From positions 496,001-560,000 of the forward strand of contig NZ_CP076547.1 in assembly GCF_018889995.1 (NCBI RefSeq): a stretch of 64,000 nt of DNA. Reading direction: 5' to 3'. Shown here piece after piece: positions 6,740 through 44,992 of this stretch. This stretch comes from Subtercola sp. PAMC28395 (lineage in GTDB: Bacteria; Actinomycetota; Actinomycetes; Actinomycetales; Microbacteriaceae). Within the stretch, counting starts at the first letter, position 1. Each line of letters begins with the position of its first letter. Position numbers and translations under genes: made by a program. The notes beneath the pieces are model-generated. The model was not told the DNA's origin, searched no databases, and saw nothing but the letters and a program-made list of their open reading frames with translations.

Positions 6740-6793
6740 AAATAGGTGAGCCGACGGCTGTTGCTGCGAGCCGCGCGAGTGCACGATGGTCTC

Positions 6794-18600: not shown

Positions 18601-18798
18601 GCCGGAGAACGATTCGGAGACCAAGTTGGTGCCGGCCGGCACGGAGACAACGGGTGCAGAGGCAACGGGTGCAGCAGAGGCCGGTGCGGCAACAGCGACA
18701 ACCGCGCCGAAAGCAACGAGAGCCGGAGCCACGACGGCCACGATCAGGTGGCTCCTGGTGAGACGACGGCGGCTGGTGGCCGTGGTGATGGACTGCAC
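15616..18798 (-). CDS. Secreted L-type lectin and seven Ig-like repeats, adhesin-like
   Basis: 1060 residues from the GTG at 18798 (AAGGGG eight bases upstream). Residues 1-43 are a signal peptide ending A-S-A. Residues ~55-335 have L-type lectin features (F-x-Q-W-Q-Y, [19 protein letters not shown]). Seven Ig-like repeats of ~85-90 residues follow, each with the V-x-I-x-G-G, T-P-x-I-x-G-T-T, T-W-S-V and D-A-A-G-N-V-G pattern and usually ending T-V-D-T-I-A-P. Three lie before and four after a long Pro-Thr linker. No LPXTG motif or C-terminal anchor is visible, so it is probably secreted or non-covalently attached. The lectin domain beside a glycan locus suggests carbohydrate binding. Confidence 0.88.
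16675..16950 (-). repeat. Hexanucleotide tandem repeat encoding a Pro-Thr linker
   Basis: The plus strand is built of repeated GTCGGC/GTCGGG units with GTGACC interruptions. On the coding strand this reads alternating Thr-Pro with Val-Thr-Pro breaks. Such tracts can change length by slippage, altering the spacing between the Ig blocks. Confidence 0.85.
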
Positions 18799-19093
18799 GA
18801 GGTTCCCCTTGCTGGGTGGGTTGACAAGTCGGTGTGAAAAGTCAGTCGGTGTACCGCGTGGTGCAGTACCGAGTAGAACAGTAGCGTTGCCACCCTCTGC
18901 GGTCCCGACGCAATTCGCCCAGCTTTTGCGCAGTTTCTCGCCGAATGGCACGAATTGCCGGACAACTTCACTCTCGTGAGGCGATGGTGCCGAATCGAGG
19001 CCAGCCCACGCGCCTCACATCGGCACGTCGGCCGGACATCGCCTCGCACCGTCGCATCAGACTCGCGACGAAGCTGGACACTGTTGAGAGCCG

Positions 19094-20284: not shown

Positions 20285-20289
20285 GATGG

Positions 20290-23200
20290 TTACTCCTTTG
20301 GTTCGGGTGGAGGTGAGTCTTCGTACTCCAGATCGGGCCGTCGACGCGAGCGCCAGCGCACCAGCAGGGCGCTGACCACCAGGAGCAGTCCGGTTGCTGC
20401 GATGCCCAGCCAGCTCGGGCCCATCTCATCGCTCGTACCGGGCACGAGATCCTGCACGTCTGCGGCCGCCAGATTGAGCAGCTGGTCCTCGGTGAGGTTG
20501 AGGTGGGCCTGGTTGGCAGCAGGGTCGACGTAGCCCTGGACTTTGCCCGTGATGGGGGTGACCTTCGAGCATCCGAGGTCATTGGGGTTGGTGATCTGCG
20601 AAACGTTGGCCGGGAGAGCAAGCGACTCATAGTCTGCTTCGGGCACGAGCATCATGCCCTCGACCAGCATGGGGTTGTTGTCGGTCTTGTCGATGTTGAA
20701 GGCGTGCGAGCCGGCCGTGGCATCCACCACGCCGAGATCCTGGTAGCTGTACGCGACGTTCACCGGCGTCAGTTCATCTGGCATGGCTGCCTCGAGTTGG
20801 GCGACCGACATCCCTGAGGTGTCCACCGGCTTCCGATCGGGGCTGAACACGCTCGCCGTCGGGTAGTACTGGAGGTCACTCGGCGGGGAACGAAGTTCGA
20901 CCGTCTTGTCGTACGAGAGCCCGGGAGAGCTGATCTTCAACGTGTTCGCCGTCGCGGCCGTTCGCATCAACACGTGGTATTTGCCCGCTGTCGGAACCGT
21001 CACCGGAATGCTGAACTGGGTGGCTCGGGGCACACCGATGAACGAACCGCGCAAAGTACCGAAAACCCCGGGAGTGATCACGTTCGTGCGATTCCATTTC
21101 GTGTTCGAGAACAACAGGAACGAACGGAACATTGGCGACAGATAGTAGCTCGACGCAACGATGTCGGGGTTGAAGGCGAACATCCGGGTGTCCGGCGGCG
21201 AGATCGACTTCGGATGATCCAGCATGTAGAGGTCGAGCGCAGAGGTCTGCACGTCGTCGGTGAGCAGGTGGATCGTGCTGTTCGGCTCCACCGATGCCGG
21301 GTCGAAGTACGGCGTGTACTCGAACTTGTAACACCGGCTCAGATCGTGGCGGGTGAACACCAGGTTCAGGTAGGTCTGCCAGCTCGAATCGACCAGCAGC
21401 GTCTCACGATGTTCCGGTGCCTGGTCGGTGATCTCGTAGAGTGCATAGCTCTTGTTCTCGAACCGGAGCGCGACCTGGTCGGGCAACCGCTTCAGAGCGG
21501 GTTCGACGTAGCTCTCAACGTTCGGCAGGTACTCGGCACCGACACCGTTGTTGGTGTGGATGTTCTTTGCCACCACGATGTACCTGAGGCCGATGTCGCG
21601 GGCCTCGTTGATCCACCAGTCCTGCTGGTAGTAGAGCCCGCGCAGAATCAGGAAGAAGTCGAACTTGTTCTTCACGTCGCCTGTCAGCCCGTAGTAGAAG
21701 CTCGGCGCGTCGAGATAGTAGATGAAGAACTTGTCGATGAACTTGTGGTCGATACCGTTCTCGTCACCTACGAGTTTCGACGTCTCTGTTGGCGGCAGAA
21801 CCGCCGTCTTGCCCTCCGGCAGGGCATCGAGGGCCGTCTTGAGCTCCTTCAGGTCACCGAGTGGGAACGGCGAGAGAAAGTTCGCCATGTTGCCCGAGCT
21901 GAACACGAGCCGGTACGTCGGGTTGGAGAAGAACGGGGTGAAGAAGACCGAGGCGATGCACGCCGTTGCGAGAAGCCGGAACAGCAGCGTGCTGCGCTCT
22001 GCCGCAGTGGATGCCCGGCGTCGCCTCCGCGCAGGCTTCATCGCCTTGGCTGCGACACCCGTCGCGGAGACCGGCGCATCGGTCGGCGCGAATGCGGCTG
22101 CGGTGACGGGTTCTGCCTGTGCGTCAGCAGGCTCTCCCTGTCGCGAGTCCCCGGACTGCAGCGCATCCGGCTTCAAGGCGTCGGCCGCGGGCGGCATCGC
22201 TGCACGGGCCGGGGCACCCGTCAGAAGGCGGCCCAGCGCATCGATGCCCCAGGCGAGAGTGAGCGACATCACAAGCGGCGCGAGCATGAACAGGATCAGC
22301 TGGAACCTGTGCGGGAAGCGGAGCACCTGCACGATGGTGCCAGCGATCGTCACCACGAAGTTGCCGATGACGCTGTGTGAGTTGTTCGCGGTGATGGCGA
22401 GAGCCGCGAGGGTGCGGTGGAAGGTCGGCAACCACAGCGGCTCCCCGTAGCCGATCGTCGCCCAGAGGGCGAACGCGATGGCCACGTAGATCACGCCGAG
22501 GAGTTGCCGGTGCGGTCTCGTCGGAAACAGCCGACGGCGAATCGGCCCGACGAACAGCGGAATGAACAACAGAACGGTGTACACCGCGTCCGGGTACCGC
22601 GGCACCTTGGCGAGGTAGTCGCCGAAGAGAATCTTGTCGGTGATGCCCGCCAGATCCCACGACAGCATGTGCAGCCACGACACCGAGGCGTCCTGAATGA
22701 AGTAGAAGTCTCCGGGTACCGTGTCGCTCAGGTTCGTGACCCCGGCGAGGGCGACGTATTTCACGAACAGGGCGTACGGGATGATCGCGATCAGCACGAA
22801 GATGACGCCGGCGAACAGCGAGCGCCCGAGAACCGTGTCGCTGGCTTTGGTGGTGAATGCCGTGATCTTCTTGCGAAGCCGGGCCAAGCCGGCGCCGACC
22901 GATCGCAGGGACAACGGTTCACCACCCGCGCTCTCCCGCCAGACCGTCACCGGAGACCGCCATCGCCTGCGCCAGCGCCACTGCCAGGGCCACCTCAGCC
23001 TGCGCGGGCCGCCCAGTCTCATCCAGAGCCCGACCTGGCCGACGATGAGCACGAGGATGGTGATGCCGAAGAAGAGGCTGAACAGGATCAGGTAGTGCAC
23101 CGCCGGGTTGAGAAGCGTCACGAAGCTCGACAGCACCATGTAGCGCTTCCACTTGCGCCCTGCGAACAGGAGGGCGTAGAGCATCCACATCGAGGAGATG

Positions 23201-23778
23201 GTCATCATGACCAACCCGAGAATCAGCGTGTAGAAATGCGTGACCTTGGAGTAGACCATGATCAGGTAGATCAGGGCCACCGGGAACGCCGTCGCGAGAT
23301 AGATGGACTGCGACGACAAAGAGGTGAACACCTTGTCCATGAAGCGGGCAACGGTGAGGTACGTGCCCCAGAACATGGCGGGGATCACGATGAGAATGGC
23401 GAAGGGCAGCACCTTGTAATAGCGCACCCAGGTCGTGAGGAACGCGTAGCGCACGCGGAACTCGTACCCGTTCACCAACTCGTTGAACTGCCCGGCGGCC
23501 TGTTCGAGAAGCTGGCTTCGTGGGTTGAAGAAGGGCACCAGTTCGTCGCCGCCGATGACGGCAGTGCCATTCAGAACAGACGGGATGGCGAACAGAACGT
23601 CACGGAAGACGAAGAGAGCGCCGGCGAAATAGACCACACCGACGGCGAGCGCGATGGTCTTCACCGAGAGCCCGGCTGCACCGGCGGGCCTGGTGCGAGT
23701 CGTCTGCTTCGAGGCCTGAGGGCGGTCGAGCCCATCTGCCTGCGTGGGTCGTGGTGCCCGGCGGAGCACTCTGATCAC
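20290..23778 (-). CDS. Large polytopic membrane protein of the glycan locus, possibly a GT-C-type glycosyltransferase
   Basis: 1162 residues; I do not recognise the family with confidence. A first hydrophobic helix lies near residues 42-65, and about ten or more spans occur up to residue ~640. A long mostly extracytoplasmic region follows (~640-1110), with Tyr/Phe/Trp-rich stretches (F-F-I-Y-Y-L-D-A-P-S-F-Y-Y-G). One last helix near 1125 and an acidic Pro-rich tail finish the protein. A polytopic half joined to a big outer domain recalls GT-C arabinosyl/mannosyltransferases and YfhO-like proteins. Its start overlaps the hybrid kinase stop by four bases and the pyruvyl transferase follows, so a role in glycan assembly or export is inferred. 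Confidence 0.75.
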   Translation of the reverse strand: MIRVLRRAPRPTQADGLDRPQASKQTTRTRPAGAAGLSVKTIALAVGVVYFAGALFVFRDVLFAIPSVLNGTAVIGGDELVPFFNPRSQLLEQAAGQFNELVNGYEFRVRYAFLTTWVRYYKVLPFAILIVIPAMFWGTYLTVARFMDKVFTSLSSQSIYLATAFPVALIYLIMVYSKVTHFYTLILGLVMMTISSMWMLYALLFAGRKWKRYMVLSSFVTLLNPAVHYLILFSLFFGITILVLIVGQVGLWMRLGGPRRLRWPWQWRWRRRWRSPVTVWRESAGGEPLSLRSVGAGLARLRKKITAFTTKASDTVLGRSLFAGVIFVLIAIIPYALFVKYVALAGVTNLSDTVPGDFYFIQDASVSWLHMLSWDLAGITDKILFGDYLAKVPRYPDAVYTVLLFIPLFVGPIRRRLFPTRPHRQLLGVIYVAIAFALWATIGYGEPLWLPTFHRTLAALAITANNSHSVIGNFVVTIAGTIVQVLRFPHRFQLILFMLAPLVMSLTLAWGIDALGRLLTGAPARAAMPPAADALKPDALQSGDSRQGEPADAQAEPVTAAAFAPTDAPVSATGVAAKAMKPARRRRRASTAAERSTLLFRLLATACIASVFFTPFFSNPTYRLVFSSGNMANFLSPFPLGDLKELKTALDALPEGKTAVLPPTETSKLVGDENGIDHKFIDKFFIYYLDAPSFYYGLTGDVKNKFDFFLILRGLYYQQDWWINEARDIGLRYIVVAKNIHTNNGVGAEYLPNVESYVEPALKRLPDQVALRFENKSYALYEITDQAPEHRETLLVDSSWQTYLNLVFTRHDLSRCYKFEYTPYFDPASVEPNSTIHLLTDDVQTSALDLYMLDHPKSISPPDTRMFAFNPDIVASSYYLSPMFRSFLLFSNTKWNRTNVITPGVFGTLRGSFIGVPRATQFSIPVTVPTAGKYHVLMRTAATANTLKISSPGLSYDKTVELRSPPSDLQYYPTASVFSPDRKPVDTSGMSVAQLEAAMPDELTPVNVAYSYQDLGVVDATAGSHAFNIDKTDNNPMLVEGMMLVPEADYESLALPANVSQITNPNDLGCSKVTPITGKVQGYVDPAANQAHLNLTEDQLLNLAAADVQDLVPGTSDEMGPSWLGIAATGLLLVVSALLVRWRSRRRPDLEYEDSPPPEPKE

Positions 23779-26390
23779 GGGGCGATCCCCTGACCGTGCC
23801 CCAGATCGTCGATGTCTTTCGCCACGGCATCGAAACTCGTGCGCAGGTGCTCGAACGAAGCTGGGTCGAGTGGTGACTCGTCATTCAGCGTCTCGATGGG
23901 CAGGCAGGCGGCAGCCAGAGCATCGGCGCCGATCGTGAGGCTGCTCCCTCGCAGCCGGTGGGCGAAGAACCGCAGATCTCCGACGTTTCCGGCGGCGAAC
24001 GCGTGCTCCAGGTCGAGAAGGTCGTGAGCTCCCTGGAGTGCGAACGAGCGGAGCGCAGCGGCCTTGACCTCTTCTCCCAGGTGATCGAGCCGGGCGAACG
24101 GCCGGTTTTCTGACGACCCGAGGCCGGCGTGCGCCTGACTCGCCGGAACGGCAGAACCGAATGCCCACGCAAGGTCGCGCACGGTGAACGGCTTTGCGAT
24201 GTACTCGTCCATTCCTGCCGCAAGACACGCCTCGCGATCAGTGACGGTCGCGCTTGCCGTGAGGGCGACGATCCTGGGTTGGTGCACCGCATCGCCGGCC
24301 GCACGAATTGTGATTGCGGCTTCGAGGCCGTCCATGACGGGCATGTGCATGTCCATGAGCACAAAGTCGTACACCGTGCGGTGCACGGCATCCACGGCTT
24401 CGGCGCCGTTGGAGACAAAGTCCACGACGTGGCCGAGCTTGGTCACAAGCACTCTCGACAGGGTCTGCAGGGTCGGGTCGTCTTCAGCCACCAGGACTCT
24501 GAGTGCTCCGCCAGCCACAGCGGCGACGTGTCTCGGAAGGTTCGGGTCTGGTGAACGAGGCAGGCCGGGCTCGGCACTGAGGCCAGGGCCCGAGGCGGGG
24601 TCGAACGTGGTCAACTCCCCCGCATCGGGCACCTCCAGCGGAAGGCTGTCGACCTCGACACGTACCCGGCTGAGGTTCGCATCCTCGAAGTGGAGCTCGA
24701 ACGAGAATGCAGACCCCATTCCTACGACGCTCATGAGCGTGATGTGGCCGCCCATCAACTCGACGAGAGAATGGCAGATACTGAGGCCGAGACCACTCCC
24801 GCCGTACATCCGAGTCGTCGATTCATCGACCTGTCTGAAGGATGTGAACAGCCGGTCGAGCTTGTCGACAGGGATGCCGATGCCGGTGTCGGCGACCTCG
24901 AATCGCACCGCACCGGGCGACGCGCCGTTGCGCACCGTCACACGCACCTCACCAGTCGGCGTGAACTTGACGGCGTTGCCGATGAGGTTGACCAGTATCT
25001 GGCGGAGCCGGGTGACGTCACCGAGCACCAGAAGGGGGCAGTCATCCGCCACGCGCACCTTCAGCTTGAGACGCTTTGCGTCGGCCTGCAGCGCGAAAAG
25101 GTCGGCACTGTCGGCCACGGCCTCACGAAGGTCGAACGGGCGGTGCTCCAGCTCGACTGCGCCGGCTTCGATCTTCGAGAAGTCGAGGATGTCGGTGATC
25201 AGTTCGAGAAGCAACGAACCGCTCCGCGACGCCTTTGTTGCAAGGTCGCGCTGCTCAGGGTCGAGATCGGTCAAGAGCAGCGCCTCGTTCAAACCGAGCA
25301 CGCCATTCAGCGGCGTGCGGATCTCGTGGCTCATGGTGGCGAGGAACGTGGTCTTCGCCTCGTTCGCCGCGAGCGCCTCATCCCTCGCCTGCTTCAGGCT
25401 GGCACTCAGAGCTTCCTCTCCGCGTCGCAACCGATCGGCGTCTGCCACCGAGATGAGCAACCGCAGCACGCCGGCACCCAGAGTGGCGATCGCGAAGAAC
25501 ACGGGTATATCACCCCGGGCACCGAGTTGGTTCTGCAGCAGCACACTCAGGGCGAACAGGGAGAACAGGGCCGGCGCGAACACGATGCCCCGAAAGCGCG
25601 ACTCGCTGGGCGGTGGTGGCACCTGCGACGACCACGCCGCAAGGGCGATCAGGATGGTGGCGAGTGGCCACAGCACATCGAAGGGTGAGCCCATCGAGTA
25701 TGCCCCCTGCGCCATCTGCGTGGCGAGCGCGATGCTCGAAATCGCCATGAGCAGGTACGCCGCAAACTGCAGCCACATCGCAGTACTCGGCTTGCGGTTG
25801 AGTGCGGCAAGGGCCGCGATGAGAATGGCCACGAACAGAAGGGGAGCCGCCGTGTAGAAGAGCTGGATGAGGTTGCCGACCGACATCGACTCGCCAGGAA
25901 TGACCGTGATGTTCGAAACGATCGCCAGAAGACCCAAGCCTGCGATCAGGCCATCGAGCCAGACGGCGAACGACGCGTGGGCCACCCGCTTGCGGATGAG
26001 CAGCATGAGCGAGGCCGTTGTGCAGAGAAAGAAGAGAACGTACAGAACCTGCGAGACCGGGGCGTTGGGCTGTGCCACACCTGGCGAAGCCGAGAGACCT
26101 TCGATGCAGTCCGCCACGGTGACCAGGACGAGGGCTGCGCACATGAGCCCCCACGCCACTCTCTCACGGGGAATCAGGGCGACTCGGAGCCCGATGAGCA
26201 GCGCAGACACACCCTCGATTCCCAGGTAGACACCCGTCTCCCACCAGAAGAGGGGAACAGACGACGGAAGAGCAACGGTGGCAATGCCGTACACCGTCAG
26301 TACGACGAAGACGGCCACGAAAATGGTGCTGAGAACCCGGGCGCGCGCCCTGCCGCCGATCAGCTGACCGGAGCTCGTGTCATTCGCCAC
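23775..26390 (-). CDS. Hybrid sensor histidine kinase with receiver and Hpt domains
   Basis: 871 residues from the GTG at 26390, which has GGGAGGAA seven bases upstream; the frame is open to 26528 but that part is unlikely to be translated. Residues 15-315 hold about nine transmembrane helices. HisKA has H355 in M-S-H-E-I-R-T-P-L-N-G. HATPase has N-L-I-G-N-A-V-K-F-T, D-T-G-I-G-I and G-G-S-G-L-G-L-S-I. The receiver domain (~630-745) has E-D-D at 636-638, D680 in L-M-D-M-H-M-P-V-M-D-G and K733. An Hpt helix has H811 in F-F-A-H-R-L-R-G-S-S. All relay residues are present, so phosphate could pass H355-D680-H811 to a separate receiver such as that at 32611-32985. It leads the minus unit of the glycan locus. 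Confidence 0.93.
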   Translation of the reverse strand: MANDTSSGQLIGGRARARVLSTIFVAVFVVLTVYGIATVALPSSVPLFWWETGVYLGIEGVSALLIGLRVALIPRERVAWGLMCAALVLVTVADCIEGLSASPGVAQPNAPVSQVLYVLFFLCTTASLMLLIRKRVAHASFAVWLDGLIAGLGLLAIVSNITVIPGESMSVGNLIQLFYTAAPLLFVAILIAALAALNRKPSTAMWLQFAAYLLMAISSIALATQMAQGAYSMGSPFDVLWPLATILIALAAWSSQVPPPPSESRFRGIVFAPALFSLFALSVLLQNQLGARGDIPVFFAIATLGAGVLRLLISVADADRLRRGEEALSASLKQARDEALAANEAKTTFLATMSHEIRTPLNGVLGLNEALLLTDLDPEQRDLATKASRSGSLLLELITDILDFSKIEAGAVELEHRPFDLREAVADSADLFALQADAKRLKLKVRVADDCPLLVLGDVTRLRQILVNLIGNAVKFTPTGEVRVTVRNGASPGAVRFEVADTGIGIPVDKLDRLFTSFRQVDESTTRMYGGSGLGLSICHSLVELMGGHITLMSVVGMGSAFSFELHFEDANLSRVRVEVDSLPLEVPDAGELTTFDPASGPGLSAEPGLPRSPDPNLPRHVAAVAGGALRVLVAEDDPTLQTLSRVLVTKLGHVVDFVSNGAEAVDAVHRTVYDFVLMDMHMPVMDGLEAAITIRAAGDAVHQPRIVALTASATVTDREACLAAGMDEYIAKPFTVRDLAWAFGSAVPASQAHAGLGSSENRPFARLDHLGEEVKAAALRSFALQGAHDLLDLEHAFAAGNVGDLRFFAHRLRGSSLTIGADALAAACLPIETLNDESPLDPASFEHLRTSFDAVAKDIDDLGHGQGIAP

Positions 26391-26761
26391 TTCGAAGTTC
26401 CTCCCACTCGGTCCCTGAAGATTATTCCTGCGCAGTGTCTCTGGATACGATTCCTGCACGATTTGCAGGCCGCGTCTGCCCCGGTCGACTCGGATTCCCC
26501 ACCCCCAGTACTCCCAACACCCGCGCATTCATTGGTGCCACTCAAACTGGGGGTGCCCAGTCTTGCAGGCTTCTTGTGTTCTCGTGCGTAATCCCGACAG
26601 CCGTCGTCGGATCGCCCCGGTTGATTCTGCGCTATCGTGAAGCCACGACCACCCGCAGGCGATGTACCTGACATCGTCACAGCAGTAGAAATCCGGGGTG
26701 CGACGGCGATCGGGCAGTTGCCTGCTTCGCCACCTGACCGACTGCTGGGGGGTAGCGGCTC
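26391..26761. other. Divergent control region of the glycan locus
   Basis: 371 bases between the hybrid kinase (minus) and the glycosyltransferase (plus). I see no gene here. The glycosyltransferase ATG is preceded by a run of six G within ten bases, a possible ribosome-binding site. TATCGT at 26633-26638 is a possible -10, without a convincing -35. No clear sigma-B-like promoter was found by eye. Confidence 0.5.
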
Positions 26762-27988
26762 ATGACCGATCCGCAGCACACGGCCCGTCTCGACTCACGC
26801 TCCGCCTCGAAACTTCGAATCGGTGTCGTCACAGCATTTCCACCAGGCAGGAACAGCCTGAACGAATTCGGCTTCCACTTGGTGAAGCACCTGTCACGGC
26901 TCGACGAGGTCGAGTCAGTGGTCGTCTTCGCCGACGAGACAGACGCGGGTGACCCTGACCCCATGCCGGGGGTCCAATTCGTCTCCGCCTGGCGATTCAA
27001 CAGCCTGTCGACCGTGTTCCGTCTCACCCGCTCCATCGTGCAGGCGAAGCCCGATGCAGTCGTGCTCAATCTCCAGTTTGCGACCTTCGGCGATCGCCGC
27101 ATCGCCGGGGCCCTCGGGCTCCTGGTGCCCGCTGTACTGCGAGCACGAAAGATTCCCACGCTCCTGATCCTGCACAATCTGGCTGACAACGTCGACATGA
27201 AGGATGCCGGCTTCGCCGGTTCGCCGCTCACCGCCTGGCTGATGACGAAGGCCGGCCGTATCCTGACGCGTGCCTTGCTTCGTGCAGACCTGGTCGCGCT
27301 GACGATTCCGCGATATGTCGAGTTCCTACAGTCGAGCTACGGAGCCACGAACGCGATTCTCGCTCCCCACGGCAGCTTCGATGAGATACCCCAGCCCGTG
27401 TTCACGGCGCCCCCCGGGCGACGGTCCATCCTCGCCTTCGGCAAATGGGGAACCTACAAGACCGTCGACCTTCTGGTTCACGCCTACAAAGAACTCCTGG
27501 ACCGCGGCTACACCGACATCAGCCTCGTACTTGCCGGCACCGACAGCCCGAACTCGGCCGGATACATGGCCTCGGCCGAGGAACGCTTCTCCGACGTGCC
27601 GAATATCGAGATGCCGGGCTACATCTCTGAAGACGAAGTCTCCACCCTCTTTCTCTCAGCGACCGTTGTGGCGTTTCCGTACACCTCGACGACCGGCAGT
27701 TCGGGAGTACTGCACCAGGCCGGAGAGTACGGTCGCGCTGCGGTGATCCCCCGGATCGGTGACCTGGTCGACATCATCGAGGAAGAAGGGTTCCGAGGCG
27801 TCTACTTCGAACCAGGTGATGCAACCAGCCTGGCCGACGCGCTCGCAGAAGTGCTCGACGACCCCGTCAAACAGGGGGAGCTGGGCCGGCGCAACTATGC
27901 GGCCGCGACCGGGATCCCGATGTCAGAGGTCGTGCAGTGGCACATCGCGCACATCGAACGTCTGCTCGAGAAGCGGGCGCGGCGATGA
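26762..27988 (+). CDS. Family 4 glycosyltransferase (GT-B)
   Basis: 408 residues. The C-terminal half has the GT4 pattern: an F-G-K-W-G-T-Y-K substrate/NDP loop near residue 226, L-V-L-A-G-T-D, N-I-E-M-P-G-Y-I-S-E-D-E-V, and S-T-T-G-S-S-G-V-L-H-Q-A-G-E-Y-G-R near 310 with the E-x7-E-like region somewhat modified. It should transfer a sugar from a nucleotide donor to a growing glycan on the cytoplasmic face. It is the first gene of a nine-gene unit and its stop overlaps the flippase start (ATGA). Confidence 0.9.
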   Translation: MTDPQHTARLDSRSASKLRIGVVTAFPPGRNSLNEFGFHLVKHLSRLDEVESVVVFADETDAGDPDPMPGVQFVSAWRFNSLSTVFRLTRSIVQAKPDAVVLNLQFATFGDRRIAGALGLLVPAVLRARKIPTLLILHNLADNVDMKDAGFAGSPLTAWLMTKAGRILTRALLRADLVALTIPRYVEFLQSSYGATNAILAPHGSFDEIPQPVFTAPPGRRSILAFGKWGTYKTVDLLVHAYKELLDRGYTDISLVLAGTDSPNSAGYMASAEERFSDVPNIEMPGYISEDEVSTLFLSATVVAFPYTSTTGSSGVLHQAGEYGRAAVIPRIGDLVDIIEEEGFRGVYFEPGDATSLADALAEVLDDPVKQGELGRRNYAAATGIPMSEVVQWHIAHIERLLEKRARR

Positions 27989-29259
27989 CGGAGCAGGCGG
28001 TCACCGACTCGAAGGTGAGTGGCAGGCTGATCGGCGGTGGCGCACTTCTTGCCATCGCGATGGTCGTCGCGAACGCGGGCAACTACATTCTGAACCTCTT
28101 TCTCGGGCGGGTTCTGACCCCCGCAGAGTTCTCCGACGCCAACCTGATCGTCACCTTTCTCTTCAGCCTGACCTCGATTGCCCTCTGCCTGCAGCTCGTT
28201 GCCGCCCGGTTCATCGCACGCGCCGACCAGCTGGGATTCAGCGGGGATTCCGATCTGCTTGCACGTCGTCTGCGCCTGGTGGCTCTGCTCGCCGGAGTCG
28301 TCACCGGCGCCGTGCTCGCGATCGCGGCGCCGTTCTGGTCCACGATCTTTCACACCGCCTCCGCGTTGCCGTTCGTCATTCTCGGGGTCGGCGTACCCTT
28401 CTGGCTCGTTCAGGCCGTGGGGCGAGGCGTGATGCAGGCGAGACTGATGTTCGCACCTCTCGCCCTCTCGTTCGTCGTCGAGATGGTGGTGCGACTCGGC
28501 CTCGGAATCGCCCTGGTCACCGCCGGCTTCGGCGTTGACGGCGCCACTGTTGCCCTCTCGGTCTCGTTCGTCGTCACGTGCATCGTCGTGCTGATCAGCA
28601 GTCGCTCGCACAGCGACACAATGGGCCCTGGTATCGACTACGCCGAAGTCCGGGCGTATGCGTGGTTGGTCTCCGTTCTGCTACTCGGGCAGATCATCGC
28701 CAACAACAGTGACATCTTCGTGGCGAAGGCCTTCTTCACGCCGACCGACGCCGGAATCTACGCGGCCGTGGCCCTCGTCGGGCGAGCGGTGTTCTTTCTC
28801 GCGTGGTCTGTTGCGACGGTCGTCTTCCCTGTCGTCGCCCGACGCCATGCTGCGGGTGTCGAATCGTCGGCCGTTCTCCGCGGCGGAATTCTCGCTGTTC
28901 TCGCCATCGGGGTCGCGTGCACTCTCGGAGCGTTCTGGATCGGCGGCCCGGCGCTGGGCATCATCCTCGGCCCGGCATACTCCCAGCTCTCGGTGCCGCT
29001 CGCGGCGTATGCCGCAATGACCACGCTCTTCGCCGTCGCAAATCTTGTGGCGAGCTACCGCCTGTCGCAGTCGCGGGTGACCGAATCGGCCCTGCTGCTT
29101 GGCGCATCCGTTCTGCAGCTCATTCTGATTCTCATCTGGCACTCGGACATGGCGACCCTGATCGCCATGCAGTTCATCGCGATGAGCCTGCTGGTGGTCG
29201 TATTGGGCGTTAGGGCAATCGCCCTGAGGCTGGGCAACCGACAGGAGGAGGTCGCATGA
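27985..29259 (+). CDS. Wzx-like polysaccharide flippase (MOP superfamily)
   Basis: 424 residues from the ATG at 27985, within the four-base overlap. About twelve evenly spaced hydrophobic helices cover the protein. L-I-G-G-G-A-L-L-A-I-A-M-V-V-A-N-A-G-N-Y and the conserved first-helix layout match polysaccharide biosynthesis flippases. The role would be to move a lipid-linked repeat unit across the membrane. No Wzy polymerase is recognisable unless the 1162-residue protein fills that role. It is GTG/ATG-coupled to a family 2 glycosyltransferase. Confidence 0.88.
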   Translation: MTEQAVTDSKVSGRLIGGGALLAIAMVVANAGNYILNLFLGRVLTPAEFSDANLIVTFLFSLTSIALCLQLVAARFIARADQLGFSGDSDLLARRLRLVALLAGVVTGAVLAIAAPFWSTIFHTASALPFVILGVGVPFWLVQAVGRGVMQARLMFAPLALSFVVEMVVRLGLGIALVTAGFGVDGATVALSVSFVVTCIVVLISSRSHSDTMGPGIDYAEVRAYAWLVSVLLLGQIIANNSDIFVAKAFFTPTDAGIYAAVALVGRAVFFLAWSVATVVFPVVARRHAAGVESSAVLRGGILAVLAIGVACTLGAFWIGGPALGIILGPAYSQLSVPLAAYAAMTTLFAVANLVASYRLSQSRVTESALLLGASVLQLILILIWHSDMATLIAMQFIAMSLLVVVLGVRAIALRLGNRQEEVA

Positions 29260-30107
29260 GCGGGGATTCGTCGGCATACCGGGCGTACCGTGCCTGGGTC
29301 ACCGAGCCACTGGCCGTGCCGCCGATCGTCTCGGTCGTGATTCCGACCTACAACGAGGAGATCCGGATCCTGCCGACCCTCGGTGCCATCGCGACGCACA
29401 TGAGCGCGCGGAATGAGCCGTGGGAACTCATCATCGCCGATGACGGTTCGACCGACTCCACCGTCGAACTGCTGAAGGACCTGCGGTTCCCGAACCTTCG
29501 GATCCTGGTCGCCGAGAAGAATGCCGGCAAGGGTGACGCCGTTCGCCGGGGCATGCTCGCCGCGCGCGGCGAGGTCGTGTTGTTCGCGGATGCGGACCAG
29601 TCGACGCCGATCGAGCAGTTCGACCGGCTCTACGGGAAGGTCGCCGAGGGCTTCGATGTCGTCGTCGGGTCACGCGCGGCCGAGGGTGCTGCGGTGAGCG
29701 GAAAGAGCCTGTCGCGCAGGATTCTCAGCCGCGGCCTGCGCGTCATCGTCTCCCGAGGATTCGGAGTAACCGTGACTGACACCCAGTGCGGCTTCAAGCT
29801 GTTCACAGCAGACGCAGCCCATCGCCTGTTCTCCCTGCAGGTCGTCGACAGCTTCTCATTTGACCTCGAGGTGCTGTATCTGGCCTCTAAACTGGGTTTC
29901 CGTGCCGCGGAAGTGCCCGTCGAGTGGATCGACGCGCCAGGATCCACGGTGGACGCCGCCAAGGTCAGCATGCAGTTCCTCAAAGATCTCGTGCGAATCC
30001 GTGTGCACGACATGCAGGGCAGGTATTCGGCCTCCCCCCACACGACCGTTGCACGAGACCAGCACTCACACGCCGCCGGGCTTGAAGAAGGACCAACACA
30101 GACATGA
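29256..30107 (+). CDS. Family 2 glycosyltransferase, dolichyl-phosphate glucose/mannose synthase-like
   Basis: 283 residues. S-V-V-I-P-T-Y-N-E-E near 25-34, I-A-D-D-G-S-T-D near 61, A-D-A-D near 109 (metal-binding DXD) and T-D-T-Q-C-G-F-K-L-F near 171 are the canonical motifs of the Alg5/DPM1 group. It probably makes a polyprenyl-phosphate-linked sugar used outside the membrane by a GT-C enzyme. That fits the 1162-residue membrane protein of the divergent unit. The C-terminal tail after residue 250 is polar. The stop overlaps the STAS gene by four bases. Confidence 0.92.
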   Translation: MSGDSSAYRAYRAWVTEPLAVPPIVSVVIPTYNEEIRILPTLGAIATHMSARNEPWELIIADDGSTDSTVELLKDLRFPNLRILVAEKNAGKGDAVRRGMLAARGEVVLFADADQSTPIEQFDRLYGKVAEGFDVVVGSRAAEGAAVSGKSLSRRILSRGLRVIVSRGFGVTVTDTQCGFKLFTADAAHRLFSLQVVDSFSFDLEVLYLASKLGFRAAEVPVEWIDAPGSTVDAAKVSMQFLKDLVRIRVHDMQGRYSASPHTTVARDQHSHAAGLEEGPTQT

Positions 30108-30427
30108 TCATCCGCACCGAATCCGGCCCCAACCAGAACCGCGTGTCACTCGTCGGTCGTTTTGACGCCCACGAGGCCGAAAGCTTCCGGCGCACTGTGG
30201 CACCCCTTCTCACGGCGGAGACCAGCACGCTCAGGCTGGATCTCTCGCAGGTGGCGTTCGTCGACTCGACGGCGCTCACCGAGCTCGTTCGACTCCAGAA
30301 GTCTGCCAAGGCACTCTCAGGCGAACTCATCCTCGTCGATCTGTCAGACCCGGTGCGCGTCATCCTCGAAATCACCGACCTGCGCCAGGTGTTCTCCGTT
30401 GAGCAGTCTGGCGCGAGCTCCTCGTGA
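30104..30427 (+). CDS. STAS-domain protein, anti-sigma factor antagonist-like (first copy)
   Basis: 107 residues, one STAS domain. The phospho-site loop reads V-D-S-T-A-L (Asp54, Ser55, Thr56) where SpoIIAA/RsbV proteins have D-S-S-G-L, so the phosphorylated residue would be a Thr rather than Ser and the following Gly is Ala. Dephosphorylated STAS proteins of this type bind RsbW-like kinases and free their partner. It lies between glycosyltransferase and phosphatase genes, with four-base overlaps at both ends. Confidence 0.88.
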   Translation: MIIRTESGPNQNRVSLVGRFDAHEAESFRRTVAPLLTAETSTLRLDLSQVAFVDSTALTELVRLQKSAKALSGELILVDLSDPVRVILEITDLRQVFSVEQSGASSS

Positions 30428-31824
30428 TCAATCCACGCCCGCAGCAGTCTCGCGAACGGGCCGCGCTTGCGGCCGTTCCGAAGACGGCGTACCACGCGAT
30501 CGACCAGCTCGAGGCTCAGGCATCGGCCGCCTACGACGGCCGGGCAGATGGTACAGGCGGGGCTGCGAGCGCGACGGCAGCCGCCGGACTCGCCCGAGAC
30601 GCGATCCACTCCCTGGAGTCGATGCAACTCGAACTGACCAGCGCCCTGATCGCCAGCCAGGACCGCATTCACGCCATGAAGGCACTCGCACAGATCAACG
30701 TGCAGGGCCTGGCATCGGAGCAGACGATCGGCCTGCTTCTCGGCAAGGCTCTCGGCCTGACAGAATCCGTCGTGATCCTTCTCCTCGAGGGAGAGGAGGT
30801 CATTGCTTCGAACGGGCAGCTCGCCCAGCTCGACGAATACACCGCAGTGACACTCGAGAGCATCCGCTTGGCGCCAGGGTCTTCGTTGCGAAGCGCGGCC
30901 TCCGGACGGGCGATGATCGCTGCGCTCGACCCCGATGGGCAGGCCGACCGCTACCTCGCCTTCTTCCGCGGAGAGGGCCGATCGTTCTCGACCACCGACA
31001 TCCCGGTCATCGAAGCCATCGTCTCTGCCCTCGGTGTGATGCTGGCGTTCAACGACCTGCACCACCGCGAACTCGAACGCGCCGCCGTCGAGCGCGAACA
31101 CCAATTGGCCTCTGCCCTGGCGCAATCGGTGATCATCGAGCGACCGCCGAAGTCACCGGTGATCGACTTCTTCGCCAAGTCAGTGCCAGCGTCACTCACA
31201 GGCGGTGACTTCTACGTCTTCGGCCAGACAGACGGCTCGATCTGGTTCGCGGTCGGCGACGTCGCGGGCAAGGGGCTGCCTGCAGCAATGATCATGACGC
31301 GTGCCGTTGCGGCTTGTCGAGTCGCCTTCCTCGCCCACCGCCACGCCTCCGTTGCCGAGGTCATGCGGCGAATAGAAGACGAACTCTTCGACTACCTCGA
31401 CGACGTCGGGGTCTTCGTCACGCTCGCTGTCGGTCTCTACGATGAGAACTCTCACGAGGTGTCGCTGGCGAACGCCGGTCACTCCCCCGTCGTACTCGTG
31501 CGTGACGGAGTCGCAACCTTCGTACCGGCCTCCGTGCCCCCGCTCGGCGTGGTTCGAAACCTCATACCAGTGGTGAGCAGCATGATCCTGAACGATACCG
31601 ACTGCCTCGTCGTCGGGTCAGACGGTCTCGCTGAGCAGTCGAATGCTTCCGGAGAGATGTTCGGTTACGAACGCTTTCGACAGCTCTGTCTCAGCGCTTC
31701 GCTCAAACCCTCACGGATGATGGGAGAAGAGTTGTTCGACACCATTCACTCATTCGCCGCCGGGCAGAGCGCCTCAGACGACTCGACCCTCGTCATCCTC
31801 AAATCGCTCGGAGAGCACTCATGA
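30424..31824 (+). CDS. GAF-SpoIIE PP2C-type serine/threonine phosphatase
   Basis: 466 residues. Residues 1-85 are helical; 90-215 look like a GAF-type sensory domain; residues 216-235 form a linker helix. The SpoIIE catalytic domain covers ~245-462: G-G-D-F-Y (260-264), V-G-D-V-A-G-K-G-L-P-A-A (277-288), A-N-A-G-H-S-P (349-355), G-S-D-G-L-A-E-Q (398-405) and D-D-S-T-L-V-I-L (452-459) supply the metal-binding Asp residues. It would dephosphorylate one or both STAS proteins, in response to a cytoplasmic signal sensed by GAF. GTGA start overlaps the STAS gene. Confidence 0.93.
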   Translation: MINPRPQQSRERAALAAVPKTAYHAIDQLEAQASAAYDGRADGTGGAASATAAAGLARDAIHSLESMQLELTSALIASQDRIHAMKALAQINVQGLASEQTIGLLLGKALGLTESVVILLLEGEEVIASNGQLAQLDEYTAVTLESIRLAPGSSLRSAASGRAMIAALDPDGQADRYLAFFRGEGRSFSTTDIPVIEAIVSALGVMLAFNDLHHRELERAAVEREHQLASALAQSVIIERPPKSPVIDFFAKSVPASLTGGDFYVFGQTDGSIWFAVGDVAGKGLPAAMIMTRAVAACRVAFLAHRHASVAEVMRRIEDELFDYLDDVGVFVTLAVGLYDENSHEVSLANAGHSPVVLVRDGVATFVPASVPPLGVVRNLIPVVSSMILNDTDCLVVGSDGLAEQSNASGEMFGYERFRQLCLSASLKPSRMMGEELFDTIHSFAAGQSASDDSTLVILKSLGEHS

Positions 31825-32243
31825 CTCCCATTGTGCAGTCCCATCTCCGCCTTGAGCCGAGCCCTCTGGCCCTCCGGGCGCTGAGTCCCTGGTTGAAGAC
31901 AGCGATCGACAGCCTGGATCCTGCACCCGCACCGGATCTGTTCTCCCGCGCGGAGTTGGCCGTGCACGAGGCGTGCATGAACGTGATCGACCATGCAGAG
32001 CTGCCGCCCAACAGCATGATCGAGCTGGAACTCACTCTCGGGCCCGACAGTCTGACCGTACAGGTACGAGACCCGGGCGAAGAGTTCGATCTGGCTGCGG
32101 TGCCTGCGCCTGACCCGATGGGCCTCGGCGAGCGCGGCTACGGGGTCAAGATCATCCGCTCGCTTGTCTCTGTTCTCGTCTACCGTCGAAACGGCGACAT
32201 GAACGAACTGGAGATGCGCATCGACACAGAGGGGCTATCGTGA
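31821..32243 (+). CDS. RsbW-like serine/threonine kinase (anti-sigma factor type)
   Basis: 140 residues of the HATPase_c_2 family. N box H-E-A-C-M-N-V-I-D-H-A (49-59) with Glu50 and Asn54; G1 box R-D-P-G-E-E-F-D (83-90); G2 box G-E-R-G-Y-G-V-K-I-I (103-112). In partner switching such kinases phosphorylate STAS antagonists and hold a sigma factor or another effector. Coupled by ATGA to the phosphatase and by GTGA to the second STAS gene. No sigma factor gene is in the window, so the sequestered partner is unknown. Confidence 0.92.
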   Translation: MTPIVQSHLRLEPSPLALRALSPWLKTAIDSLDPAPAPDLFSRAELAVHEACMNVIDHAELPPNSMIELELTLGPDSLTVQVRDPGEEFDLAAVPAPDPMGLGERGYGVKIIRSLVSVLVYRRNGDMNELEMRIDTEGLS

Positions 32244-32611
32244 CGGAATCCGACACCAGAGGCGTACCGAGCGACGGCCTGACACTGACGATCACATCGC
32301 TCGTCGGCGACACCGCTGAACTTGCCCTGAAGGGCAGATTCGACGTGGTCGAGTCGCTGGGCGTTCGCGAGCAGTTGGCCAGTGAGAAACTGGCTCCTGT
32401 GCGACACCTCACCATCGACCTCACTGAGGTCTCGTTCGTCGACAGCGCTGGTCTCGCCGTGCTCGCGCGAGCTCGACGCGACCTCATGCGCGAGGGAGGA
32501 TCGGTGACGCTGGTGCGGCCGATTGCCAACGACGCTATGCGCGTTTTCCGGCTCACCCAGTTCGACCAGATCTTCACAATGATCGACCGACCGCAGACGG
32601 ACGGTTCGTAA
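32240..32611 (+). CDS. STAS-domain protein, anti-sigma factor antagonist-like (second copy)
   Basis: 123 residues. The phospho-site loop is V-D-S-A-G-L (Asp68, Ser69, Ala70, Gly71). The usual phospho-Ser position (second residue after Asp) is Ala here, while the preceding Ser is kept. F-V-D-S-A-G-L-A-V-L matches RsbV-like proteins well. With the first STAS protein it forms a pair with different phospho-site chemistry around one kinase and one phosphatase. The stop and the next ATG share one base (TAATG). Confidence 0.9.
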   Translation: MTESDTRGVPSDGLTLTITSLVGDTAELALKGRFDVVESLGVREQLASEKLAPVRHLTIDLTEVSFVDSAGLAVLARARRDLMREGGSVTLVRPIANDAMRVFRLTQFDQIFTMIDRPQTDGS

Positions 32612-32985
32612 TGGGTTCGATTGCTCTGGTTGTTGAAGACGATGCGATCTCCCGGCTCGTGTTGTCGCACATGCTCCGTCAACGCGGCTTCGCTGTCGAC
32701 GAAGCGATCGATGTCGTCGACGCCTGCAGAAAGGTGGTGCGGACCGAATACGACCTCGTGATGTCGGACTACCACCTCCCATCGGGAACCGCTGTCGACG
32801 TACTGGAGACGGTCGAAGCACGGCCGGGCACGCAACCACCGTTTCTGCTGATCACGGGCAGCATCGAACATTCGGCCGTCTCTGCGGAACTGGCTGGTCG
32901 TCTGAGCGGGCTGATGACCAAACCCGTCAGCTCGGAAGCGCTGAACGACGCCCTCGACCGCTTGTTTCCGCAAGGCTCTGCCTGA
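32611..32985 (+). CDS. Stand-alone receiver-domain response regulator
   Basis: 124 residues, receiver domain only. Acidic pair E9-D10-D11, phospho-acceptor D53 in V-M-S-D-Y-H-L-P-S-G, T82 and K104 are all in place. There is no output domain, so it acts by protein contact or as a relay intermediate. The only orphan phospho-donor nearby is the Hpt domain of the divergent hybrid kinase, which lacks another partner. Coupled by TAATG upstream and TGATG downstream. Confidence 0.93.
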   Translation: MGSIALVVEDDAISRLVLSHMLRQRGFAVDEAIDVVDACRKVVRTEYDLVMSDYHLPSGTAVDVLETVEARPGTQPPFLLITGSIEHSAVSAELAGRLSGLMTKPVSSEALNDALDRLFPQGSA

Positions 32986-33962
32986 TGGGTCGCCCCACTC
33001 GACTGTCGCGAGTCGGGTACGCACTGGGCTGGGCCGTGGCCGGTGGGCTGGTCTTCGTGGCTGTCGTGCGCGTATGGCGGCCGGAATCTGTGCCCCTGCT
33101 CATCGGTCTCCAGGGCGTCGTCGAGTGGGCCCTGCTTCCTGCGTATCCCCTGGCCGTCATCGCGATCTGGCGTCGCAAACGCGCCCTCGCCGTCGTGGCG
33201 CTGGCACTCTGTGCCGTACAGCTGTGGTGGACAGCAGGCCTGATCGGGTGGAACGGCACGCAGGCGCTCCCCGACGGAGATCTGCGGGTCCGGCTCGTCA
33301 CGGCCAACCTGCTCAACGAGAACGCCCACATCCCCGAGCTCGGTGACAGTCTCGCGGCCGAGGGTGCCGACATCGTCGTCGTGCAGGAAGTCACGCCAGA
33401 TGTGCTGGCAGCCCTCGGCTCATCCCAGCTCTGGACGATCTACCCGTACCGCGCCACCGCGCCGCTGGACGGGTTTCTGGGGTCGGCGACATTCTCGAAG
33501 TTCCCCATAGCCAACAGTCACGAAATCGACGTGGCCGGCCACCCGATGCTGCAGACCGACCTCGAGACCCCGGCGGGCTCGCTGCGCCTCGTCAACGTGC
33601 ACACCGTGGCTCCCCTCTCCACCGAAGATGCACCGGCCTGGGCACGGCAATTCTCCTCACTTGCTACGGTGGCGGCAGAGAGCCCCTTTCCCATCGTGTT
33701 CGCTGGCGACTTCAATGCAACGCTCGATCACGCACCGCTCGAGTCGCTGGTATCGGGCGATCTGCGCGATGCCTTCCGGGTTGCCGGATCTGGCGTCGGC
33801 CTGACCTGGCCCCGCTGGGACCTGCCCATCCCTCCTCTGATGCGCCTCGACCATGTAATCGTGAGCCCGGGCATCACCGTCGTCTCCGTCAACGACGAAC
33901 TGAGCGTCGGGAGCGACCACCGCCACCTCGTCGTCGAGCTCGGCCTGCCGCACGCGAACTAG
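32985..33962 (+). CDS. Membrane-anchored endonuclease/exonuclease/phosphatase (EEP) family protein
   Basis: 325 residues. Three hydrophobic helices (about 12-30, 36-61, 67-90) precede an EEP domain. Catalytic motif residues are visible: N108 in V-T-A-N-L-L-N, E135 in V-V-Q-E-V, D242 and N244 in G-D-F-N-A-T, D289-H290 and D311-H312 in S-D-H-R-H. The domain is probably outside the membrane. EEP enzymes hydrolyse phosphodiesters of nucleic acids, phosphoinositides or sphingomyelin; the substrate here is unknown, and a glycolipid phosphodiester would suit the neighbours. It is last in the nine-gene unit. Confidence 0.88.
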   Translation: MGRPTRLSRVGYALGWAVAGGLVFVAVVRVWRPESVPLLIGLQGVVEWALLPAYPLAVIAIWRRKRALAVVALALCAVQLWWTAGLIGWNGTQALPDGDLRVRLVTANLLNENAHIPELGDSLAAEGADIVVVQEVTPDVLAALGSSQLWTIYPYRATAPLDGFLGSATFSKFPIANSHEIDVAGHPMLQTDLETPAGSLRLVNVHTVAPLSTEDAPAWARQFSSLATVAAESPFPIVFAGDFNATLDHAPLESLVSGDLRDAFRVAGSGVGLTWPRWDLPIPPLMRLDHVIVSPGITVVSVNDELSVGSDHRHLVVELGLPHAN

Positions 33963-34493: not shown

Positions 34494-34494
34494 G

Positions 34495-34568
34495 TAGCGG
34501 GAGCGGGACTTGAACCCGCGACCCCACGATTATGAGCCGTGTGCTCTAACCAACTGAGCTACCCCGCC
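34495..34568 (-). tRNA. tRNA-Met (CAT), elongator type
   Basis: 74 bases. The anticodon loop is CTCATAA with anticodon CAT. The acceptor GGCGGGG pairs with TCCCGCT and the T-loop is GGTTCAAGTCC. The first base pair is present (weak G-T), unlike initiator tRNA. It follows tRNA-Thr by 37 bases and is followed by a terminator, so the two are probably co-transcribed. Confidence 0.95.
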
Positions 34569-34605
34569 AAGGCCCCCAGTCTCTCACGAGACATACGGAG
34601 CCGGG

Positions 34606-34677
<72 letters not shown>

Positions 34678-38396: not shown

Positions 38397-38530
38397 TCCG
38401 ACTCCCCCTTCGTAACGATCTCTGAAGCCAATGAAGAGCACCACCGACCACCCCTTCAACAAACGTCGCCCAGCCAGTACCGAACTTGCTCGTCGTTCTG
38501 AAGCTACCCCATGAACGCACGAGGAGTACT

Positions 38531-44895: not shown

Positions 44896-44907
44896 TCGGC
44901 CACCCTA
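44896..44907 (-). promoter_or_regulatory. -10 element of a probable leaderless promoter (lytic transglycosylase)
   Basis: TAGGGT (44902-44907), GGCCGA, then GTG at 44895 on the minus strand. Confidence 0.6.
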
Positions 44908-44992
44908 CAGATGCCCGCTTGGAGGAGCCCGACACCCGCCCGGGCACACATCGGGCGGCCGCTTCACTTCACGTCGCCCCACCCTCCCCCGG

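Follow-up and report, generated by a model that had tools for sequence, protein, structure and literature searches.

Subtercola sp. PAMC28395 encodes a set of glycan-assembly genes interlocked with a complete partner-switching module: an RsbW/SpoIIAB-type kinase, a PP2C phosphatase and STAS proteins with a phosphorylatable serine. We are inclined to regard the whole as a horizontally moving cassette for glycan assembly that brings its own post-translational switch, the output of which, the protein STAS1, acts on the glycan machinery. The switch probably controls the sugar machinery itself, because the genomes that carry the cassette are mostly without a sigma factor of the SigB/SigF type for it to address.

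The unit lies in a window of 64,000 nucleotides (positions 496001-560000 of the contig). Nine plus-strand genes extend from 26762 to 33962, and each label is backed by Pfam: a GT4 glycosyltransferase (26762-27988; PF13692, 5e-16); FLIP, a Wzx-type flippase (27985-29259; PF13440, 8e-7), taken to start with the ATG at 27985 and not at 27937, where the longest frame would begin; GT2, a probable polyprenyl-phosphate sugar synthase (29256-30107; PF00535); STAS1, an antagonist-like STAS protein with a predicted phosphosite at Ser55 (30104-30427; PF01740); a SpoIIE-type PP2C phosphatase with an additional N-terminal domain (30424-31824; PF07228, 2e-37); an RsbW-like serine kinase (31821-32243; PF13581, HATPase_c_2, 3e-18); STAS2, with a predicted phosphosite at Ser69 (32240-32611; PF01740); a single-domain receiver with phosphoacceptor Asp53 (32611-32985; PF00072, 2e-14); and EEP, an accessory, membrane-anchored enzyme of the endonuclease/exonuclease/phosphatase fold with two hydrophobic segments (32985-33962; PF03372, 2e-24). 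Neighbors overlap by 4 bases (GT4/flippase, flippase/GT2, GT2/STAS1, STAS1/SpoIIE, SpoIIE/RsbW, RsbW/STAS2) or by 1 base (STAS2/receiver, receiver/EEP). All nine frames and every overlap were read from the sequence, and the uninterrupted run described in the first-pass annotation stands. Its limits do not: three divergent minus-strand genes (19094-26528) also belong to the unit. These encode HHK, a membrane hybrid histidine kinase of HisKA-HATPase-REC-Hpt architecture by Pfam (23775-26528); TM1162, a 1162-aa membrane protein recognized by its hydrophobic segments and possibly a glycan-assembly enzyme (20290-23778); and PYR, a CsaB-like polysaccharide pyruvyl transferase (19094-20284; PF04230, 8e-30). 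The region between HHK and GT4 (26529-26761) is likely to carry promoters for both directions. No DNA-binding domain was matched by Pfam among the unit's 12 proteins. The secreted Ig-like repeat protein P1111 (15616-18951), which adjoins PYR, was considered as a further member and dropped: tblastn (E 1e-3) yielded no match to it in the eight regions that extend past PYR (G219, G192, G058, G358, G310, G700, G670 and G685), the named-contig loci stopping within PYR.

Twelve carriers were found, in Microbacteriaceae, in a second family of that order and in the family to which Rhodococcus belongs (G811 is left uncounted because its contig is only 5.3 kb long and shows EEP-TM1162-PYR alone). All 12 have the five glycan genes (GT4, FLIP, GT2, PYR, TM1162; in L025, L027 and L028 the retrieved sequence stops within PYR) together with a STAS1-type gene; the RsbW-like kinase and the SpoIIE phosphatase are present in 10. 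Gene order and the 4-base overlaps from GT4 through RsbW are identical in the seven loci compared, and also in G700. TM1162 is present in 6 of 398 genomes of the family, and these six include all five in which the phosphatase has a strong ortholog (hypergeometric 7e-11). The repetition of order and overlaps and this co-occurrence argue that the arrangement is not due to chance, and the objection that it might be peculiar to this strain, which the first-pass annotation had itself raised, fails because the gene set is kept so far beyond it. The distant carrier G310 has a rearranged core, with STAS1-SpoIIE-RsbW immediately before TM1162-PYR-FLIP-GT2-GT4. Flanking genes differ between genera, and the cassette appears to have moved horizontally between genera and orders; carriage by plasmids was rejected, since none of 72,556 plasmid records matched a 487-aa piece of TM1162. 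The weakly matching phosphatases of G308, G254 and G011 (29-31% identity; in G308 only the phosphatase was matched within 20 kb) were discarded as not orthologous, as were L030 (28%) and L031 (25%), by identity.

The switch proteins retain their characteristic motifs. The kinase keeps E50/N54/H58 and the DxG motif in 10/10 kinase-bearing loci and is its genome's best match to PF13581 by nine orders of magnitude in E. In the phosphatase, D262, D279, D400, D452 and D453 are invariant (seven aligned), and its top Foldseek matches are SiaA (6k4e) and Rv1364c (3ke6). STAS1, which is matched by solved RsbV and SpoIIAA chains, has serine at residue 55 in all 10 kinase-bearing loci; the DS motif of STAS2 is found in each of the eight kinase-bearing loci that possess that gene. 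The claim that a complete kinase/phosphatase/antagonist set resides within a glycan locus is thus borne out. The phosphatase's GAF label is not: seven orthologs gave no Pfam match to that domain even at E up to 1, and it is only by eye that the order of elements in the AlphaFold model of its alpha/beta N-terminal domain would fit a GAF-like domain. On the two-component side, HHK's phosphorelay residues H401, D726 and H857 are conserved in 8/8 aligned sequences and the receiver's D53, T82 and K104 in 9/9.

Two genomes of one genus, G670 and G685, are natural variants in which kinase and phosphatase are missing from the locus; tblastn and profile searches found no match to either in the surrounding 37.7 and 40.0 kb. 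The phosphorylatable serine motif is gone from both STAS proteins (residue 55 of STAS1 is arginine in both), and the STAS1-type protein is nevertheless retained, with scores of 44.5 and 43.2 bits where an unlinked STAS protein reaches 16.0. Because kinase, phosphatase and serine motif have been lost while STAS1 is kept, these two genomes suggest that STAS1 serves some function by itself, independent of a locus-borne kinase.

Wzx-dependent glycan assembly calls for a flippase, glycosyltransferases and a polymerase or ligase; of these, a flippase and two glycosyltransferases are recognizable among the glycan genes. The nearest solved chains to GT2 are ArnC (9bhc, 3.6e-17) and dolichol-P-mannose synthase (5mlz, 4.7e-15); PYR scores 141 bits against the CsaB model, under that model's cut-off of 213. 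TM1162 had no match in Pfam, NCBIfam or the PDB sequences (one of eight orthologs had a single chance-level Pfam match); it is 67-71% identical to six aligned orthologs and 53% to that of G310. It was also held against the features of a GT-C polyprenyl-phosphate-sugar transferase, a GT-C membrane fold with an acidic motif in the first outer loop: a simple scan gives 12 hydrophobic segments, and the motif GDELVPFFN (77-85) is invariant. Its AlphaFold model is poor (mean pLDDT 42.6; at or below about 50 in the N-terminal part). Blocks of the C-terminal domain mostly reach 56-86 but drop at 971-1010, and only the C-terminal beta-sandwich is usable. This sandwich, at about 911-1070, resembles CBM6/CBM35 by Foldseek; among 10 matches at E <=0.001, insecticidal Cry proteins take the first four places and CBMs or CBM-bearing enzymes the others, which probably signifies a common jelly-roll fold and nothing more.

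Mean pairwise identity is 69% for STAS1, 70-76% for the glycan proteins and 54-57% for the other regulators (some of these means being over other subsets): regulators except STAS1 diverge faster than the enzymes. Distances for the glycan set (GT4, FLIP, GT2, TM1162) and the regulator set (STAS1, SpoIIE, RsbW) are correlated, with r 0.93, or 0.62 once a near-duplicate Microbacterium is removed. Glycan distances do not follow those of SigA; of three taxon sets, two show a weak correlation between regulator and SigA distances (r 0.22, p 0.034; r 0.54, p 0.019).

What, then, does the switch act upon? The RsbW-like kinase could be an anti-sigma factor whose partner, a housekeeping or ECF-like sigma factor, lies elsewhere in the genome; the switch would then govern transcription, whether of the locus itself or of other genes. 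We consider this unlikely, even though STAS1, at 58.4, exceeds the 53.45 cut-off of the superfamily model for anti-sigma antagonists (STAS2, at 48.0, is just under). SpoIIAB-type proteins bind region 3 of sigma factors, and in Chlamydia it is reportedly the housekeeping sigma factor that RsbW targets, as a study's title suggests. Biofilm STAS switches that work through sigma factors are on record (PMC6482189). The genome has nine places matching Sigma70 region 2, all of them outside the window, in which the first-pass annotation had rightly seen no sigma gene; region 3 is matched only once, within a 477-aa frame that is presumably the housekeeping sigma factor. Exactly one region-3 sigma factor is also found in six of eight other carriers, so that no SigB/SigF-type partner was found in seven of the nine carriers tested, the sole region-3 factor presumably being the housekeeping one; L025's genome and G358 have a further one. 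Also against sigma control are the kinase's weak match to curated RsbW models (26.1 bits, cut-off 145), the apparent movement of the cassette between orders, and the retention of STAS1 at loci that have no kinase.

The receiver accompanies STAS1 in all 11 judgeable loci, and STAS1 could therefore work with the two-component part: HHK, the receiver or the phosphatase might be what the STAS proteins modulate, with the receiver as true output. In the kinase-less loci a hybrid kinase that aligns with HHK is retained, and the G670 locus has a DNA-binding response regulator (Pfam). This arrangement is nonetheless distinctly improbable, since HHK was not found in the 20 kb of G700 examined, where the switch is retained, and since the type of receiver changes from locus to locus (single-domain, HTH fusion, OmpR-type) while STAS1 stays. 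That the target should be some other enzyme, EEP for instance or one that handles cyclic-di-GMP, recalls the action of SiaC on SiaD: the SiaABC partner switch is tied to that diguanylate cyclase (PMC7647112, PMC8457831), and SiaA is the phosphatase's top fold match. It is very unlikely here: no GGDEF domain is matched among the unit's 12 proteins, and the absence of EEP from 4 of 11 judgeable loci (L025, G358, G310, G685) rules it out as a necessary target. (G670 has an EEP-family protein that aligns with the window's EEP over just 172 residues at 27% identity and may not be its ortholog.) As for the absence of any functional link, the regulators merely adjoining the glycan genes by chance or hitch-hiking with them, the faster evolution of regulators besides STAS1 would fit; it can scarcely be credited when 10 loci, including a rearranged one, have kinase, phosphatase, STAS1 and the five glycan genes side by side, when GT2 and STAS1 overlap by the same 4 bases in the window, the 7/7 compared loci and G700, when flanks differ between genera, and when glycan and regulator distances are correlated.

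The favored reading, that STAS1 acts on the glycan machinery, can be put as a scheme. GT2, GT4, the flippase, PYR and TM1162 would make and export a pyruvylated glycan. HHK would relay phosphate from His401 through Asp726 and His857 to Asp53 of the receiver, and a second signal may reach the phosphatase by way of its N-terminal domain. The kinase would phosphorylate Ser55 of STAS1 and Ser69 of STAS2, and the phosphatase would remove the phosphate. In the proposed polarity it is free, unphosphorylated STAS1 that would be the output, acting in the cytoplasm or at the inner face of the membrane on a target that would not be a sigma factor. The gene adjoining STAS1 differs between locus types, and no single target is therefore marked, the 1162-residue protein that the first-pass annotation gave as an example included. 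Tentatively, one can go further and imagine a valve that, in Gram-positive bacteria, acts directly on the assembly of lipid-linked glycans: STAS1, when unphosphorylated, might bind a glycosyltransferase, the flippase or TM1162 and license export, the RsbW-like kinase would be an "anti-glycosyltransferase", and STAS1 of the kinase-less relatives would be locked in one state.

The three protein families are those of Bacillus RsbU/RsbV/RsbW and SpoIIE/SpoIIAA/SpoIIAB; unlike in Bacillus, the unit has no sigma gene and seven of the nine carriers tested have no second region-3 factor. In Pseudomonas, the Hpt protein HptB feeds HsbR-HsbA, whose genes sit outside a glycan operon. That pathway is likewise a response-regulator-linked STAS switch for biofilm, described, however, as acting through FlgM and RpoS, that is, by sigma control (PMC6482189). 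Pseudomonas SiaABCD resembles the cassette in co-transcribing a PP2C phosphatase, a kinase and a STAS-like protein with an output enzyme, in that case a diguanylate cyclase; SiaC is reported to be phosphorylated on Thr68, and the portions of the accounts compared mention neither glycan genes nor a receiver (PMC7647112, PMC7278518, PMC8457831). Nearest in logic, though not by locus homology, is Syp of Vibrio fischeri (SypF hybrid kinase, SypE, SypA), in which a STAS protein and serine kinase/phosphatase are tied to a polysaccharide locus under phosphorelay control (PMC4517449, PMC8256260). SypE unites kinase and phosphatase in one protein, while the actinobacterial unit encodes kinase, phosphatase, receiver and the two STAS domains as separate proteins; Syp also has a DNA-binding activator, SypG, with no counterpart matched here. 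Unphosphorylated SypA, the S56A form included, is reported as active (PMC4517449), and the accounts describe no evidence that it serves as an anti-sigma antagonist (PMC4517449, PMC8256260), one of them leaving sigma factors open as partners (PMC8256260). HmpU/HmpW/HmpV of the cyanobacterium Nostoc also form a partner switch, linked there to both motility and polysaccharide (PMC8256260). A literature search by titles and the openings of abstracts, with most subscription papers outside its scope, found no description of such a cassette.

On what the STAS proteins of polysaccharide loci act is an open question: the targets of SypA and HmpV are given as unknown (PMC4517449, PMC8256260). The same logic recurs in actinobacteria as a compact, apparently mobile cassette, mostly in genomes that offer it no sigma factor of the SigB/SigF type as partner, and there are natural variants without kinase, phosphatase and phosphosite together. 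Recurrence, the mostly missing sigma partner and the natural variants therefore narrow the target to a few co-inherited proteins, testable in small genomes.

All nine plus-strand genes (26762-33962) are confirmed as open reading frames, with the overlaps that the first-pass annotation described, and Pfam matches them as a GT4 glycosyltransferase, a Wzx-type flippase, a GT2 glycosyltransferase, a STAS protein (STAS1), a SpoIIE phosphatase, an RsbW-like HATPase kinase, another STAS protein (STAS2), a single-domain receiver and an EEP enzyme. STAS1 lies above the cut-off of the NCBIfam antagonist superfamily (58.4 bits; cut-off 53.45), STAS2 slightly under it (48.0 bits), and the kinase scores weakly on the curated NCBIfam RsbW models (26.1 bits; cut-off 145). 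The GAF label given to the phosphatase finds no backing in Pfam at E up to 1 for any of seven orthologs; in the AlphaFold model (mean pLDDT 73) the N-domain is alpha/beta, and its elements, judged by eye, run in an order that would fit a GAF-like domain. The phosphatase's nearest fold matches (Foldseek) are SiaA and Rv1364c.

Divergently, on the minus strand, lie genes for a membrane hybrid histidine kinase that also contains a receiver and an Hpt domain (HHK, 23775-26528), an 1162-aa membrane protein (TM1162, 20290-23778) and a CsaB-like pyruvyl transferase (PYR, 19094-20284). In related loci PYR through the receiver or EEP are kept together as one set; by eye, the flanks vary from genus to genus, the two Microbacterium loci having theirs in common. 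This gives the unit a length of about 14.9 kb, 19094-33962: the nine genes do form part of it, and the limits first proposed, which left out the three divergent genes, were too narrow. The tRNA-Met and tRNA-Thr genes immediately past the EEP end (34494-34677, minus strand) are a possible integration edge. Adjoining PYR (15616-18951, minus strand) is a gene for a secreted-looking protein of 1111 aa. It carries six Ig-like (Big_13) stretches as well as an extended Pro-Thr linker and has no match in eight related regions.

(Elsewhere on the plus strand of the window are an ABC transporter pair followed at short spacings by a HisKA_3 kinase and a LuxR-type regulator, 6746-10484; a 528-aa protein with three DUF4214 stretches, 38486-40072; and a YajQ-family gene, 44345-45493, which probably begins further in than its 382-aa frame, since the match is limited to residues 222-382.)

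How widespread is the cassette? The phosphatase protein has matches at E 1e-20 or better in eight of 398 same-family genomes, five strong (own genome included) and three weak (29-31% identity), and none in the ten own-genus genomes listed in that search. Scanning named genome contigs reduced 266 candidate stretches to eight relatives, a lower bound because exact peptide words are required; the six strong ones are a MAG, Rhodococcus sp. KRD162 (L025), two Microbacterium (L027 and L028, near duplicates with identical SigA), and Agreia bicolorata and a Homoserinibacter, both of the window's own family, Microbacteriaceae. Pieces of TM1162 match in 6/398 genomes of that family, 4/394 of the class (own included), 4/391 of the family of G670, to which Rhodococcus belongs, and 1/186 of the family of G700. 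With L024/G219, L026/G192, L029/G058 and L025/G1017 each taken as one genome (L025 is also placed in G398), there are twelve distinct carriers: the window, G219, L025, G192, L027, L028, G058, G358, G310, G700, G670 and G685. To these is added a fragment, L077 (G811, a 5.3 kb contig), with EEP-TM1162-PYR on a single strand, a different gene order, and too short to reveal regulators.

The gene order does recur in other genomes: from GT4 through RsbW every junction, including the GT2-STAS1 seam between glycan and switch genes, is a 4-base overlap in seven loci (G219, L025, G192, L027, L028, G058, G358) and in G700, a carrier from another family. EEP is present in the window, G192, L027, L028, G058 and G700, finds no match in the L025, G358, G310 and G685 loci, is represented in G670 by a distant family member (27% over 172 residues), and cannot be judged in G219, whose contig stops after RsbW. 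HHK is absent from the 20 kb read of G700, although the switch is there. G310 is rearranged: on one strand STAS1 is followed by a short phosphatase, the kinase, TM1162 (53% identical to the window's over the alignment), PYR, flippase, GT2 and GT4, then by a fusion of HTH and receiver and by a histidine kinase; STAS2 was not found in its locus either.

Glycan and regulator genes show correlated divergence. Mean pairwise identity across eight loci is 76% for TM1162 and GT4, 73% for GT2, 70% for the flippase and 69% for STAS1, with the other regulators at 57% (SpoIIE), 55% (RsbW) and 54% (HHK); on other subsets PYR gives 71% (L025 partial), STAS2 57%, EEP 56% and REC, the receiver, 54%. Glycan distances (GT4, flippase, GT2, TM1162) correlate with regulator distances (STAS1, SpoIIE, RsbW) at r 0.93 (p 0.0006, eight loci), 0.62 without L028 (p 0.006) and 0.64 without L028 and L025 (p 0.004). 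Glycan distances do not track SigA in three taxon sets (r 0.13, -0.17, 0.15), and the regulators do so weakly in two of the three (r 0.22, p 0.034; 0.06, p 0.43; 0.54, p 0.019). The Rhodococcus locus, which is without EEP, stands at 0.23-0.28 from the Microbacteriaceae loci, which lie just as far from one another (0.22-0.31, leaving aside the two Microbacterium), while its SigA distance is 0.28-0.29 versus 0.05-0.08 among Microbacteriaceae. This pattern points to transfer of the cassette between orders.

Does the switch serve a conventional sigma factor? SpoIIAB-type proteins bind sigma region 3. In the own genome region 2 has nine matches, and just one of these frames, of 477 aa and presumably the housekeeping sigma factor, also shows region 3. 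Of eight other carriers, six have one region-3 match each, in frames of 455-539 aa, compared with two in G358 and three in Rhodococcus; one of these lies in a 282-aa frame, so that the search does detect SigF-sized proteins. By region 3, then, a SigB/SigF partner is not found in seven of nine carriers, own genome included, in a sample made up of the window's genome, G192, L025, G058, G358, G310, an 82% complete genome (G219) and the two near-duplicate Microbacterium.

The two kinase-less loci, G670 and G685 (one genus), bear on the same question. There GT2-GT4-STAS-STAS-(EEP family, G670)-OmpR-type regulator adjoins flippase-PYR-TM1162 (assigned by Pfam in G670, by likeness in G685). On the STAS1 profile the first STAS reaches 44.5 and 43.2 bits, against 25.3 and 21.7 on that of STAS2, unlike the unlinked STAS of G685 (16.0 and 36.1; the window's STAS2 gives 49.9 on the STAS1 profile), which places this first STAS in the STAS1 line. 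Ser55, which we take to be the equivalent of SpoIIAA Ser58, is kept in 10/10 kinase-bearing loci and is Arg in G670 and G685, where the second STAS has also lost its Ser motif. RFD-H and R-ILE are further conserved residues of STAS1. Kinase, phosphatase and phosphosites are thus missing together: neither tblastn nor profiles (built from ten kinase-bearing loci, and recovering the G310 and G700 copies, both profile members) find SpoIIE or RsbW in the surrounding 37.7 and 40.0 kb. An antagonist that merely holds a kinase would be useless in such loci, and these two related genomes, read at the locus alone, suggest that STAS1 has a function of its own there. A hybrid kinase is also present, adjoined by a heme-NO-binding protein and a HisKA-like fragment (5816-7023 of L068 in G670, by Pfam; 6647-7818 of L070 in G685, by likeness); gas or redox sensing may therefore control the glycan of these loci.

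The nearest solved chains to GT2 are ArnC and dolichol-phosphate-mannose synthase, which makes a polyprenyl-phosphate sugar its likely product. GT-C polyprenyl-phosphate-sugar transferases have an acidic motif in the first outer loop. TM1162 has no family match in Pfam, NCBIfam or PDB-sequence searches; its C-terminal beta-sandwich is similar to jelly-roll domains, CBM6/CBM35 among them (Foldseek), the remainder of the AlphaFold model being unusable, and a GT-C-type transferase or polymerase is our guess. On its glycan side STAS1 borders GT2 (loci of the window's type) or GT4 (G670/G685); the G310 series begins with STAS1, and TM1162 comes after its phosphatase and kinase. Gene neighborhood thus marks no single glycan protein as the candidate target.

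The phosphorelay residues of HHK are intact in 8/8 and the receiver active site in 9/9 aligned; the motifs of the kinase and the Asp residues of the phosphatase are kept in 10/10. Phosphorelay and phosphatase inputs would set the phosphorylation of STAS1 and STAS2, and free STAS1 would act upon the glycan machinery. In logic the closest known systems are Syp (PMC8256260, PMC4517449) and Sia (PMC7647112, PMC8457831, PMC7278518); Pseudomonas HsbR-HsbA (PMC6482189) was also compared. Literature searches, going by titles and the openings of abstracts, found no account of this glycan/partner-switch cassette; we regard it as a form of partner switching with a probable non-sigma output.
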